Below are positions 3,268 through 6,355 of a DNA stretch of 42,983 bases, one piece after another. Numbering within the stretch: the stretch's first letter is position 1; each line of letters opens with the position of its first letter. Under the pieces are notes generated by a model. It searched no databases and was not told the origin of the DNA. It saw only the letters and a list, made by a program, of their open reading frames with translations. The stretch comes from an uncultured Bacteroidales bacterium (GTDB lineage Bacteria; Bacteroidota; Bacteroidia; Bacteroidales; WCHB1-69). A program made the translations under genes and the position numbers. The stretch is taken from the NCBI GenBank assembly GCA_905233585.1, contig CAJOFD010000015.1:1-42983 (forward strand). The letters run 5' to 3'.

Positions 3268-3362
3268 TTTTCACTTTTCAAAAAGTGAAAAACAATTAAA
3301 AAATCACTTTTTCAAAAGTGATTTTTTTTTGTATTCAAAGCAACAACTTTCTTTACAAAGAA
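3268..3362. repeat. Long palindrome-rich direct repeat, copy A (upstream of ATPase 1)
   Basis: This 95-bp copy is nearly identical to 4845-4938, so the two bracket the ATPase gene at 3579. It holds two hairpins that share their core words: CACTTTT and AAAAGTG occur in both, so the right arm of the first can also pair with the left arm of the second. The second hairpin has A-rich and T-rich flanks (AAAAAATCACTTTT and AAAAGTGATTTTTT) and would act as a Rho-independent terminator in either direction. The right end carries the word CTTTCTTTACAAAGAA that also opens repeat C at 4924. Confidence 0.9.
3302..3332. terminator. Bidirectional terminator-like hairpin
   Basis: The arms ATCACTTTT and AAAAGTGAT surround a tiny loop and are flanked by A and T runs, giving a U-tract on either transcript. 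It could end transcription of the lipoprotein operon finishing at 3145. No direct evidence of function. Confidence 0.6.
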
Positions 3363-3520
3363 TGATTTTATTTGATAATGCGTGGATCTGAGATACTCAA
3401 ATTACCTTACTAAATGAATATACACCGCCTTAACAACACCCTTTTACAAACACACAAACAATTGACAAACAATAATATAACATGTTTTTTTTAATATTTT
3501 TCACACAAAAGCAATAAAGC

Positions 3521-3580
3521 ACTTAGTAAGTACGTTATTAGTAATAAATTTATTAGTAATAAATCAATTAGTACAATTAT
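3521..3580 (+). promoter_or_regulatory. Iteron-like array: four TTAGTA units at exact 15-bp spacing
   Basis: TTAGTA begins at 3523, 3538, 3553 and 3568, a strict 15-bp period. The units are ACTTAGTAAGTACGT, TATTAGTAATAAATT, TATTAGTAATAAATC and AATTAGTACAATTAT. The first three each contain an 11-bp dyad centred on G (ACTTAGTAAGT, TATTAGTAATA twice). The last unit touches the ATG at 3579. This arrangement fits a cooperative operator overlapping the translation start, or a replication-type iteron. The regular spacing is seen directly; protein binding is inferred. Confidence 0.65.
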
Positions 3581-4697
3581 GGATAGTCTATTTGTATTTG
3601 GAAAAACAGTAAGTGGCAATGCTTTTACAGACCGAGAAGAAGATACAAAGAAATTGGTTTCCAATTTCAAGTATGGTGTAAATACTTTTATTGTCTCCCC
3701 TCGCCGATGGGGCAAAACATCGTTGGTAAAAAAAGCAAAAGGTATAGCAGAAAATGAAAAGCTTAAAATAGTGTATATGGACGTACATCGCTGTCGTACT
3801 CATGAAGATTTCTGCGAACGCTTTGCCTCAGCAGTGCTAACACAAACAGCCGGCAAAATGGACGAATGGCTGGATATTGCACGTTCGTTTCTTAGTCGTT
3901 TCAGTTTTGCCATCAATGCGTCTCCCGAACCAATGGGTGAAATGAGCATAAAACTGCAACTTTCCCCCCAAGAACGCTCATTAGAAGATTTGCTCCAATT
4001 ACCAGAGCATATCGCCAAGAAAAAAAACATTCGTGTAGTGGTATGTATAGATGAATTTCAGCAGATAGGTACTTTTCCAAACTCATTACAGTTTCAAACC
4101 GAACTTCGCTCCACATGGCAACATCACAAGTTGACCTCCTATTGCCTATTCGGTAGCCGCAAACACATGATGGAATCTTTTTTTGACGACACAACCAAAC
4201 CATTTTATAAATTCGGAGACATCATCTACTTAGGACGTATTCCTATGGAATACTGGATAACATACATTACCAACAAATTCTATCAAGAAGGGAAACACAT
4301 CTCACAAGAACAAACAGAATGGATAGTTAATCAAGTAGATGGAAATTCTTCTTATGTACAACAACTGGCATGGTATGTTTTTCAACGTACAGCAAAGAAA
4401 GTTGATGAAACAATACTTCGCGAAGCGTTTGAGGAACTTGTTTTTCAATGTTCCGATATATTTGAAGCAAAAACAGAAGGTCTGACGGCTTTCCAAATGA
4501 ATTTCTTGCAAGCCGTATCCGATGGATTTCACACAGGACTCACATCCTCCAAAGTTATTTCTCGCTATCATTTAGGCTCATCTCCCAATGTTATTTCCAT
4601 AAAGAAATCTCTGATAGACAAAGACCTCATTCTTGTTGAAAACAAGAAAATACTACTTGCTGATCCAATAATGGGTGCATGGTTAAAGAAAAACTAA
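3579..4697 (+). CDS. P-loop ATPase of the archaeal-ATPase (ATPase_2-like) type
   Basis: This 372-residue protein has a Walker A at about 40-50 (SPRRWGKTSLV), a Walker B at 151-161 (IRVVVCIDEFQQI), and the family-typical stretch LFGSRKHMMESFF followed by FYKFGDIIYLGRIP (190-222). The last ~90 residues look like a winged-helix module (QMNFLQAVSDGFH, LGSSPNVISIKKSLIDKDLI). These proteins belong to the STAND/AAA-like group; many are multicopy in Bacteroidota and their roles are mostly unknown. No TAnnTTTG promoter was found. The start is chosen at ATG 3579, which directly follows the 15-bp iteron array. Direct repeats A and B lie on either side. It is not closely similar to the next ATPase, so the pair is not a simple duplication. 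Confidence 0.88.
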   Translation: MDSLFVFGKTVSGNAFTDREEDTKKLVSNFKYGVNTFIVSPRRWGKTSLVKKAKGIAENEKLKIVYMDVHRCRTHEDFCERFASAVLTQTAGKMDEWLDIARSFLSRFSFAINASPEPMGEMSIKLQLSPQERSLEDLLQLPEHIAKKKNIRVVVCIDEFQQIGTFPNSLQFQTELRSTWQHHKLTSYCLFGSRKHMMESFFDDTTKPFYKFGDIIYLGRIPMEYWITYITNKFYQEGKHISQEQTEWIVNQVDGNSSYVQQLAWYVFQRTAKKVDETILREAFEELVFQCSDIFEAKTEGLTAFQMNFLQAVSDGFHTGLTSSKVISRYHLGSSPNVISIKKSLIDKDLILVENKKILLADPIMGAWLKKN

Positions 4698-4844
4698 TTT
4701 TTTCACACGACTTTCCGCACCCTACTTCTATAGAAAAAAATCAGCCATATAATGCAATAAATATTCTACGCACCCACCGAAAAACACACAACTAACATAA
4801 ATACAATAATTTAATAGATTAATAGAAATGTATCCGACTATTAT

Positions 4845-4938
4845 TTTTCACTTTTTAAAAAGTGAAAAATAATCAAAAAATCACTTTTTCAAAAGTGATT
4901 TTTTTTGTATTCAAAGCAATAACTTTCTTTACAAAGAA
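4845..4938. repeat. Long palindrome-rich direct repeat, copy B (between the two ATPases)
   Basis: This 94-bp copy matches 3268-3362 with a few substitutions and one T fewer. It keeps the same two hairpins with shared arms and the same right end. Its last 15 bases overlap the start of the second repeat family (copy C at 4924), so the two repeat families are fused here. Together with the rest of 4698-5044 it fills the gap between the ATPase genes; no other gene is visible there. Confidence 0.9.
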
Positions 4939-5005
4939 ATAAAATCACATAAAAACTTTCTTTATAAAGAAAAAAAATATCAAAAATATTTCTTTATAAA
5001 GAAAA
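4924..5005. repeat. Direct repeat C with three phased 16-bp palindromes
   Basis: This 82-bp unit aligns without gaps to 6274-6355 with four mismatches by eye, so it brackets the second ATPase gene. It contains TTTCTTTACAAAGAAA at 4924 and TTTCTTTATAAAGAAA at 4957 and 4989. The 33- and 32-bp steps are about three helical turns and put all three palindromes on one face of the DNA. The third palindrome sits immediately upstream of the -7 promoter element at 5012. Confidence 0.92.
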
Positions 5006-5011
5006 ATATTG

Positions 5012-5019
5012 TACCTTTG
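5012..5019 (+). promoter_or_regulatory. Bacteroidota -7 promoter element (TACCTTTG) for ATPase 2
   Basis: TACCTTTG matches TAnnTTTG and lies 25 bp before the ATG at 5045. The third palindrome of repeat C (4989-5004) covers where the -33 region and spacer would be, so a protein bound there should block transcription. Confidence 0.7.
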
Positions 5020-5044
5020 CAAATAATTTAAAATACATACATTT

Positions 5045-6241
5045 ATGCAAACTCTTGTTTCTGCGTACAATAGAAGTTTAGACAATACAGATTGTACTTT
5101 TGTAAGATACCTGTATCATTTCATCAATTGGCAAGAACGGCTTATCGGCATAAAAGGCAGTCGGGGTGTAGGTAAAACCACGCTATTGCTGCAACACATC
5201 AAAACAGCTTTTTCCGATAGGGCTCAGGCTTTTTATGTTTCTTTGGACAATATCTGGTTTAGCAGTAACACCCTTTCAGACTTGGTGGAATACCTCTATA
5301 CCCATGGGGTTACACATATTTTTTTGGACGAAGTGCATCGGTACCCGCAATGGATACGGGAAATAAAAAACATTTACGATAGTTATCCCAAACTGCACAT
5401 TGTATTCACGGGCTCATCTCTACTTGAAATAGACAATGCCCAAGCTGACCTTTCCAGAAGAGTACGCATGTACAAACTATGCGGCTTGTCGTTCAGAGAA
5501 TATTTAGAAATCAACAATGTGTCTTCCTTGCCCCCCATTACACTTACCGATATTTTGAAAAAACATGTGCAAATATCAGCAGATATTGTCTCTAAAATAA
5601 CAGTATTGCCTCATTTTGAACAATATTTGCAAAGCGGCTACTACCCTTTTTTTGTCGAAACCACTTCAAAACAAAGTTATTGGGAACGGATACAACAAGT
5701 TATTACAACTATCATTGAAAATGACATACCCGCAGTAGAAAAAGTCGAATACGAAACTCTACTAAAAACCAAGCACTTACTGATATTATTATCTCAGATG
5801 GTACCTTTCACTTTAAATATTACAACCCTTTGCGACACAATATCGGTTACTCGGAATCAACTCATCAAACTCTTGACCTTGCTTGAAAGAGCGGAACTAA
5901 TACGGCAGTTGCGGTCTGATACCAAAGGACTAAAAGCATTAGGCAAACCAGATAAATTACTACCAGGCAATCCCAATATAATGTATGCCCTTAATACTAT
6001 TGTGGATATGGGTACGCTGAGGGAAACATTCTTTGCCATGACAATAGCACATTCCCATATATTACAACACCCCAAACAAGGAGATTTTTGGGTAGATAAC
6101 AAATATTTGTTTGAAATAGGTGGCAAAAACAAAGGATTCAATCAAATACGCAACCTAACAAATAGTTATGTAGTAGCAGACAATATTGAAACAGGCTTCG
6201 GAAATAAAATTCCACTTTGGCTATTTGGATTTATTTATTAA
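5045..6241 (+). CDS. AAA_14/DUF4143-type P-loop ATPase
   Basis: The 398-residue protein shows Walker A at 38-46 (GSRGVGKTT), Walker B at 91-103 (HIFLDEVHRYPQW) and a sensor-1-like strand at 119-125 (IVFTGSS). The diagnostic DLSRRVRMYKLCGLSFREYLE region lies at 135-155 (a 21-residue stretch, key residues RR and FREYLE). The C-terminal half, with FEQYLQSGYYPFF and an ending around YLFEIGGKNKGFNQI, fits DUF4143, a region with a nuclease-like fold in many relatives. The family is abundant and multicopy in Bacteroidota; its function is not established. The gene is exactly bracketed by repeats C and D and has its own promoter at 5012. Confidence 0.92.
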   Translation: MQTLVSAYNRSLDNTDCTFVRYLYHFINWQERLIGIKGSRGVGKTTLLLQHIKTAFSDRAQAFYVSLDNIWFSSNTLSDLVEYLYTHGVTHIFLDEVHRYPQWIREIKNIYDSYPKLHIVFTGSSLLEIDNAQADLSRRVRMYKLCGLSFREYLEINNVSSLPPITLTDILKKHVQISADIVSKITVLPHFEQYLQSGYYPFFVETTSKQSYWERIQQVITTIIENDIPAVEKVEYETLLKTKHLLILLSQMVPFTLNITTLCDTISVTRNQLIKLLTLLERAELIRQLRSDTKGLKALGKPDKLLPGNPNIMYALNTIVDMGTLRETFFAMTIAHSHILQHPKQGDFWVDNKYLFEIGGKNKGFNQIRNLTNSYVVADNIETGFGNKIPLWLFGFIY

Positions 6242-6273
6242 AATACTATAAATCACATAAATACAAAAACACA

Positions 6274-6355
6274 TTTCTTTATAAAGAAATAAAATCACAT
6301 AAAAACTTTCTTTACAAAGAAAAAAAATATCAAAAATCTTTCTTTATAGAGAAAA
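6274..6355. repeat. Direct repeat D (downstream of ATPase 2)
   Basis: It aligns without gaps to 4924-5005 with four mismatches. It starts 32 bp after the stop of the ATPase and holds palindromes at 6274, 6307 and a decayed one at 6339 (TTTCTTTATAGAGAAA). Unlike copy C, no promoter element follows it. The rest of 6356-6538 is A-rich sequence in which I see no gene. Confidence 0.92.

Follow-up and report, generated by a model that had tools for sequence, protein, structure and literature searches.

Two candidate defense ATPase genes lie between copies of DUF4143 ATPase promoter arrays in an uncultured Bacteroidales bacterium

Chromosomal integrons hold arrays of single defense-gene cassettes separated by repeated sites. 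Here we describe a locus in a 42,983-nucleotide stretch of DNA ("the window") from an uncultured Bacteroidales bacterium (assembly GCA_905233585.1, contig CAJOFD010000015.1), in which two ATPase genes, ATPase1 and ATPase2, lie among four long palindrome-rich repeats, A to D. As in integrons, the layout is one of single defense genes in arrays between repeated sites. In contrast to integron sites, the repeats vary by locus and are derived from local genes or operators. No integrase was noticed beside the units that we looked at, where no search for attC sites was made. The first-pass annotation of this DNA knew of no description of such flanks, but there is a precedent: restriction-modification (RM) genes insert with long, variable target duplications, as found in Helicobacter pylori genome comparisons (Nobusato et al. 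2000, as cited in PMC1643837), and the same phenomenon was described for RM genes by Furuta et al. 2010 (as cited in PMC3031569). The two cases share defense-type genes, the lack of a transposase, long variable target repeats, and filled/empty polymorphism. They differ in that the cargo here consists of single PDC-S01, PDC-S27, and PDC-S05 genes, AbiE, and AbiL; the host belongs to the Bacteroidota; targets include operator arrays and gene ends; and several units are stacked per site. For the window itself there is no empty allele for comparison, and the filled/empty pair that we know of comes from two other loci (L180 and L181; G, L, and C numbers denote genomes, loci, and contigs).

PDC-S01 and PDC-S27 have been described as ATPases fused to a PD-(D/E)XK domain (PMC12988326), and both are patchy and horizontally moved (PADLOC; PMC12988326). 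PDC-S01 is reported to be among the commonest candidate defense genes of prokaryotes (PMC12988326) and to be the most frequent individual defense locus in rumen genomes (PMC13356809). Most PDCs are unvalidated for anti-phage activity (PMC12988326). In open-licence full texts on DUF4143, COG1373/COG1672, and cassettes, we found nothing on operators, mobility, or a repeat-bounded layout of PDC-S01 or PDC-S27. On balance, we favor the explanation that the repeats in the window are PDC-S01 operator/promoter arrays and that two stacked candidate defense genes landed there, leaving long direct duplications. The locus contains the following features.

3268 to 3362, forward strand: repeat A, with type-1 palindromes at 3271-3288 and 3304-3321 (33 bp apart) and a type-2 palindrome at 3349-3362
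Repeat A, forward strand: decayed promoter -7 region, GTATTCAAAG
3363 to 4844, forward strand: insert 1, the 1,482 bp between A and B, a putative insertion unit that carries ATPase1
3535 to 3563, forward strand: operator-like iterons, TTATTAGTAATAAA twice, 15 bp apart, in the ATPase1 promoter
3579 to 4697, forward strand: ATPase1, 372 amino acids (aa), a P-loop ATPase (ATPase_2/AAA_22) with a predicted C-terminal winged helix and a weak PDC-S27 match
4845 to 4938, forward strand: repeat B, the second copy of A (1-1-2), its last palindrome shared with C
4924 to 5005, forward strand: repeat C, three type-2 palindromes starting at 4925, 4958, and 4990 (33 and 32 bp apart)
5012 to 5019, forward strand: -7 box TACCTTTG, of the Bacteroidota form TAnnTTTG, immediately 3' of array C
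5045 to 6241, forward strand: ATPase2, 398 aa, AAA_14 plus DUF4143, with a winged-helix region and C-terminal PD-(D/E)XK-like D/E/K residues (PDC-S01)
6274 to 6355, forward strand: repeat D, a copy of array C with three type-2 palindromes and without a -7 box, 32 bp past the ATPase2 stop codon

Both pairs of repeats are real, as the first-pass annotation had claimed. A and B are 94.7% identical over 95 bp (E = 2e-36), and C and D are 95.1% identical over 82 bp (78 of 82 bases; E = 5e-32). The word said to be shared where the two families meet is present as well, although it starts at 4923 and not at 4922: CTTTCTTTACAAAGAA occurs at 3347-3362 and 4923-4938. With up to three mismatches, this word has 16 copies in the window versus 3.3 expected (maximum of 8 in 100 shuffles), 14 of them within A to D or at their edges. 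We found that two palindrome types of 16 to 18 bp, type 1 (TCACTTTTYMAAAAGTGA) and type 2 (TTTCTTTAYARAGAAA), build all four repeats, with same-type neighbors 32 to 33 bp apart. The order is 1-1-2 in A, 1-1-2-2-2 in fused B+C, and 2-2-2 in D, and the edges of A/B and C/D coincide with palindrome edges. The type-2 16-mer TTTCTTTAYAAAGAAA is confined to this locus in the 2.28-Mb host genome. Apart from overlapping antisense frames, the two ATPases are the only open reading frames (ORFs) that reach 80 aa between A and D. A classical transposon or insertion sequence was rejected because the ORF list and Pfam revealed no transposase gene and because repeats of 82 to 95 bp are not short target duplications. 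No Rfam family matched the region, and scans for sigma-70 promoters and terminators gave nothing above the shuffled level.

To place the arrays, we gathered homologues from 104 genomes belonging to the same family and from the 80 best named loci, nearly all Bacteroidota. Most of these genomes are draft metagenome assemblies, and in several the repeats sit near contig ends. The best palindrome pair was spaced 32 or 33 bp in 82/109 nonredundant homologue upstream regions versus 6/109 shuffled ones (Fisher p about 1e-28), and a TAnnTTTG -7 box was present in 100/109. By a strict criterion, 11/11 palindrome pairs were at 32 to 33 bp, and 372 control upstream regions yielded 0 pairs. The palindrome sequence varies between DUF4143 subfamilies and is common to relatives. 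The 32- to 33-bp spacing is a hallmark of PDC-S01 (DUF4143/AAA_14) promoters.

The closest ATPase2 homologues that we saw (L235 at 73%, L233 at 67%, and L009 and L010 at 64%) all carry type-2-like promoter palindromes, and array C with its -7 box is therefore the ATPase2 promoter array. Across the 104 genomes, the double type-2 pattern was restricted to this locus, the L009 and L010 promoters, and one site in G066, and its reversed control gave 0 matches. The double type-1 pattern was found in A and B and in DUF4143 ATPase promoters of G010, G016, G036, G041, G070, and G071; further matches were arrays in G019, G034, and G035 and two more in G070. Given this distribution, we concluded that A/B is the operator array of another DUF4143 subfamily and not an ATPase1 flank. 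A/B-like flanks were not seen around ATPase1 relatives at 70 to 76% identity. The view that each ATPase is bracketed by its own repeats thus did not hold for ATPase1. Array D is not present in L233, L235, L009, or L010, so the bracketing arose at this locus and is no constant property of the genes. The repeats are thus not cassette ends specific to a gene.

The absence of D from these relatives also argues against a conserved second operator. If bracketing were functional, the upstream and downstream arrays would be an operator pair for DNA looping, held under selection. C and D are identical in palindrome number (three) and spacing, and at L032, L034, L106, and L245 array copies lie soon past the stop codon. 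However, the same four relatives and most homologues have no downstream array, and we consider such a looping pair very improbable.

The first-pass annotation asked whether every copy of the repeats flanks an ATPase gene. In the 104 genomes, the double type-1 palindrome lies only at DUF4143 promoters, at this locus, and at a few arrays that have no intact ATPase. Two candidate solo arrays, in G035 and G066, might have been empty sites with a single repeat. Both retain a piece of an ATPase gene and are deletion relics: L347 consists of an array plus the first ~17 ATPase codons, and L348 of an array plus the last ~8 codons. The array in G034 (L346, C81) is at a contig end, and that in G019 (L345, C205:2422) is on a 3-kb contig without an S01 gene. 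The type-1 double palindromes of L345 and L346 are near PhzF-like genes, the contigs at hand contain no ATPase, and the two are either solo arrays or assembly breaks.

Such relics suggest another origin for the layout, in which tandem duplication set array-ATPase units side by side, coding parts were then deleted, and orphan arrays happen to bracket the survivors. A/B would come from a type-1 gene and D from a second copy of ATPase2. Consistently with this, L347 and L348 are deletion relics, L077 retains the C-terminal end of another DUF4143 ATPase 5' of its array, and tandem S01 genes occur in G046 and G066. In contrast, the window's three intergenic stretches contain no credible coding relic of either ATPase family (one raw match was compositional), although this search had low power, as known short relics scored weakly too. 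A single duplication accounts better for the 95 bp common to A and B, which span two types of array, and D lacks the -7 box and the start codon, both of which are retained in relic L347. We regard tandem duplication and decay as unlikely for the locus as a whole.

Our preferred reading of the bracketing is an insertion that duplicated a long stretch of its target. The locus may have begun as the type-1 array of a now lost DUF4143 ATPase beside the type-2 array of ATPase2 (1-1-2-2-2-ATPase2), and the order of events given here is our reconstruction. Insertion of the 1,482-bp ATPase1 unit after the third palindrome, duplicating 95 bp (1-1-2), would yield A-ATPase1-B exactly. D, which duplicates the array of ATPase2 itself, is less clear: it could stem from another such event there, or it could be what is left of a neighboring copy since lost. 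Candidate mechanisms of insertion are staggered nicks, illegitimate recombination of incoming DNA, and recombination of a circle.

We asked how often such genes are bracketed by comparing the 500 bp upstream with the 500 bp downstream and counting direct repeats above a threshold. Direct repeats flanked 15/50 ATPase2 family homologues, 5/50 ATPase1 homologues, and 5/298 other genes; two of these five control genes look like such ATPases. With those two set aside, the enrichment had p values of 2e-11 for ATPase2 homologues and 0.002 for ATPase1 homologues. In the named-locus set, flanking repeats were found at 14/78. The two homologue sets partly overlap, the window is itself one of the family set, and some of the homologues are closely related, so independent bracketing events are fewer than counted. 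Repeat-bounded single-gene modules without a transposase, which the first-pass annotation had proposed, are thus recurrent for these ATPase families. They are not specific to ATPases, and we dropped that idea, as ORF6N, KilA-N, AbiE, and AbiL-type units were found too.

The flanking repeats are locus specific. They are array copies at the window, L032/L034, L077, L106, and L245; elsewhere they are pieces of neighboring genes, namely, the 3' end of a gene that we call gene X (L107), the 3' end of a 575-aa gene, present three times (L283), and the 5' end of a 682-aa gene (L110). At L111 (G071) the repeat is a perfect 61-bp intergenic stretch; a search for its empty site found that relatives retain the neighboring gene and not the upstream flank. 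At the Duncaniella locus L245, a ~90-bp stretch with an inverted repeat of ~20-bp stem occurs at 2890-2980 and 4195-4283, one copy before the S01 gene and one directly past its stop codon.

Insertion can be followed at gene X (92 aa). In G011, the next gene follows gene X directly (L181, empty). In G040, the same junction (L180, filled) contains 1,211 bp of inserted DNA with a single ORF6N gene, and a ~118-bp copy of the gene X 3' end flanks this insert. Elsewhere, units are stacked after gene X: at L107, an ATPase_2 gene, an X fragment, a DUF4143 ATPase gene, and an X fragment; at L179, a DUF4143 gene, an X fragment, a second DUF4143 gene, another X fragment, and AAA_21 plus RloB. Several genomes have DUF4143, ATPase_2, AbiE, and HEPN-type genes bounded by a different fragment, Y (119 bp), with serial units at L108, L395, and L398. 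In G070 (L344), three copies of a type-1 S01 array (67 to 108 bp at about 96%) lie around DUF4143 and AlbA_2 genes. This triple array is an independent parallel to A/B in the window. PADLOC names for the cargo of these units include PDC-S01, PDC-S27 (about E = 1e-195), PDC-S05 (ORF6N, E = 5e-104), AbiEi/AbiEii, and AbiLi/AbiLii.

Most X fragments run to the stop codon of gene X, and each cassette has its characteristic inner end (X positions 161-163 for ORF6N, 170 for the 402-aa gene, 96-100 for the 480-aa gene, and 193 for the 419-aa gene). The junction of taaagtcgtata with X170 is common to different cassettes, and the genes downstream of gene X differ between genomes. These features favor circle-type cassettes, in which a repeat-gene unit excises between direct repeats and integrates via RecA at another repeat copy, building arrays. 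Such a cycle leaves the origin of the first repeat copies unexplained, however, and no circle was detected. No other docking site was seen, as type-1 and type-2 arrays were not found elsewhere in the host genome. We think that circle-type cassettes are an improbable account of the window.

Several observations weigh against insertion with target duplication, the reading that we prefer. L180/L181 is the sole clean filled/empty pair, and it carries an ORF6N gene and not an ATPase. We sought an empty site for the window by way of cysK; four same-genus genomes gave no DNA match and no orthologous empty locus. About 70 to 80% of homologues have no detectable flanking repeat. C belongs to the promoter of ATPase2 itself, so C/D cannot be a simple target duplication. 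Array remnants left by deletion exist (L347 and L348), so D could be such a relic, and for D this rival explanation is a serious one.

The ATPases might also drive their own insertion. According to this model, DUF4143 AAA ATPase-nucleases would bind the arrays, nick two palindromes 66 to 76 bp apart, and insert units with long target duplications. We consider this quite improbable. If true, it would define a class of transposase-free single-gene mobile elements that also act in phage defense and move neighboring defense genes in trans.

The arrays also suggest how these genes are controlled. Each ATPase may bind its own tandem palindromes beside the -7 box and so set its own level. The protein, an AAA ATPase with a winged helix, probably recognizes the palindromes of its own promoter, which lie 5' of the -7 box at intervals of three helical turns, and thereby represses or tunes the gene that encodes it. 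Such self-control of ATPase level would fit a toxic defense protein. A self-regulated unit, one of the options first put forward for the locus, is plausible. ATPase1 relatives show a shorter period: the best direct repeat was at 14 to 15 bp in 30/45 of them versus 3/45 shuffled and 9/120 AT-rich control regions. At L121 (9900-9952), an ATPase1 relative has a 53-bp operator-like stretch that recurs before the AlbA_2/Schlafen-type gene downstream, as would be seen if one regulator served both genes.

As the first-pass annotation stated, the two ATPases are not similar to each other (BLASTP E = 2.7; ATPase_2/AAA_22 versus AAA_14 in Pfam). ATPase2 fits PDC-S01, matching seven PADLOC models of the family (best E = 7e-27). 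In Pfam, it matches the AAA_14 ATPase domain, with Walker motifs (E = 1e-29), and, weakly and under the gathering score, DUF4143 (E = 0.0015), which was found in 18/22 members at E values up to 0.1. G38, G41, G43, K44, and T46 are invariant, the C-terminal D/E/K residues are conserved, and there are winged-helix matches among members of the ATPase2 alignment. A PDB fold search returned generic AAA+ proteins only, with low TM-scores. For ATPase1, the PDC-S27 match is weak (E = 3e-5) and covers residues 38-211 only, compared with about E = 1e-195 for clear S27 proteins at other loci, and its structural model has a winged helix at the C-terminal end and shows no evident nuclease domain. In G068, an ATPase1 relative is in one of two paralogous blocks and not in the other, and a second copy of its operator precedes an AlbA_2-type gene.

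By protein search, each ATPase is single copy in the host genome, and ATPase2 has one weak paralogue; four further AAA_14 genes lie above the Pfam cutoff. Also in this genome, an AAA_14 ATPase gene at L356 (C21, about 2113-2472) is between ~64-bp direct repeats containing the hairpin-like AACCGCCgttattttAGCGGTGGTT, and AAA_14 genes at L357 (C6) and L358 (C47) have, by eye, ~33-bp direct iterons 5' of a TAnnTTTG -7 box. S01 homologues at L263, L294, and L306 are in metagenome-assembled genomes labeled Verrucomicrobia, Coriobacteriaceae, and Clostridiales, possibly as misbinned Bacteroidota contigs or real transfers. Relatives turned up in four viral contigs, in 36 plasmid records (each at less than 60% identity), and in one phage record that lacks annotation, so phage- or plasmid-type elements do occasionally carry S01. 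A phage or plasmid origin of the locus was rejected, as nothing ties it to such an element.

In related gut bacteria we find the same layout again, with single defense genes between long stretches copied from local DNA. This layout suggests how very common candidate defense genes accumulate and are regulated. For regulation, it gives a testable operator rule, with palindromes 32 to 33 bp apart 5' of a -7 box and a 14- to 15-bp period for ATPase_2 relatives. For accumulation, the rule that single defense genes are bounded by long local-DNA copies would extend the phenomenon known from RM genes to other defense genes and would explain how small defense-gene stacks build up.

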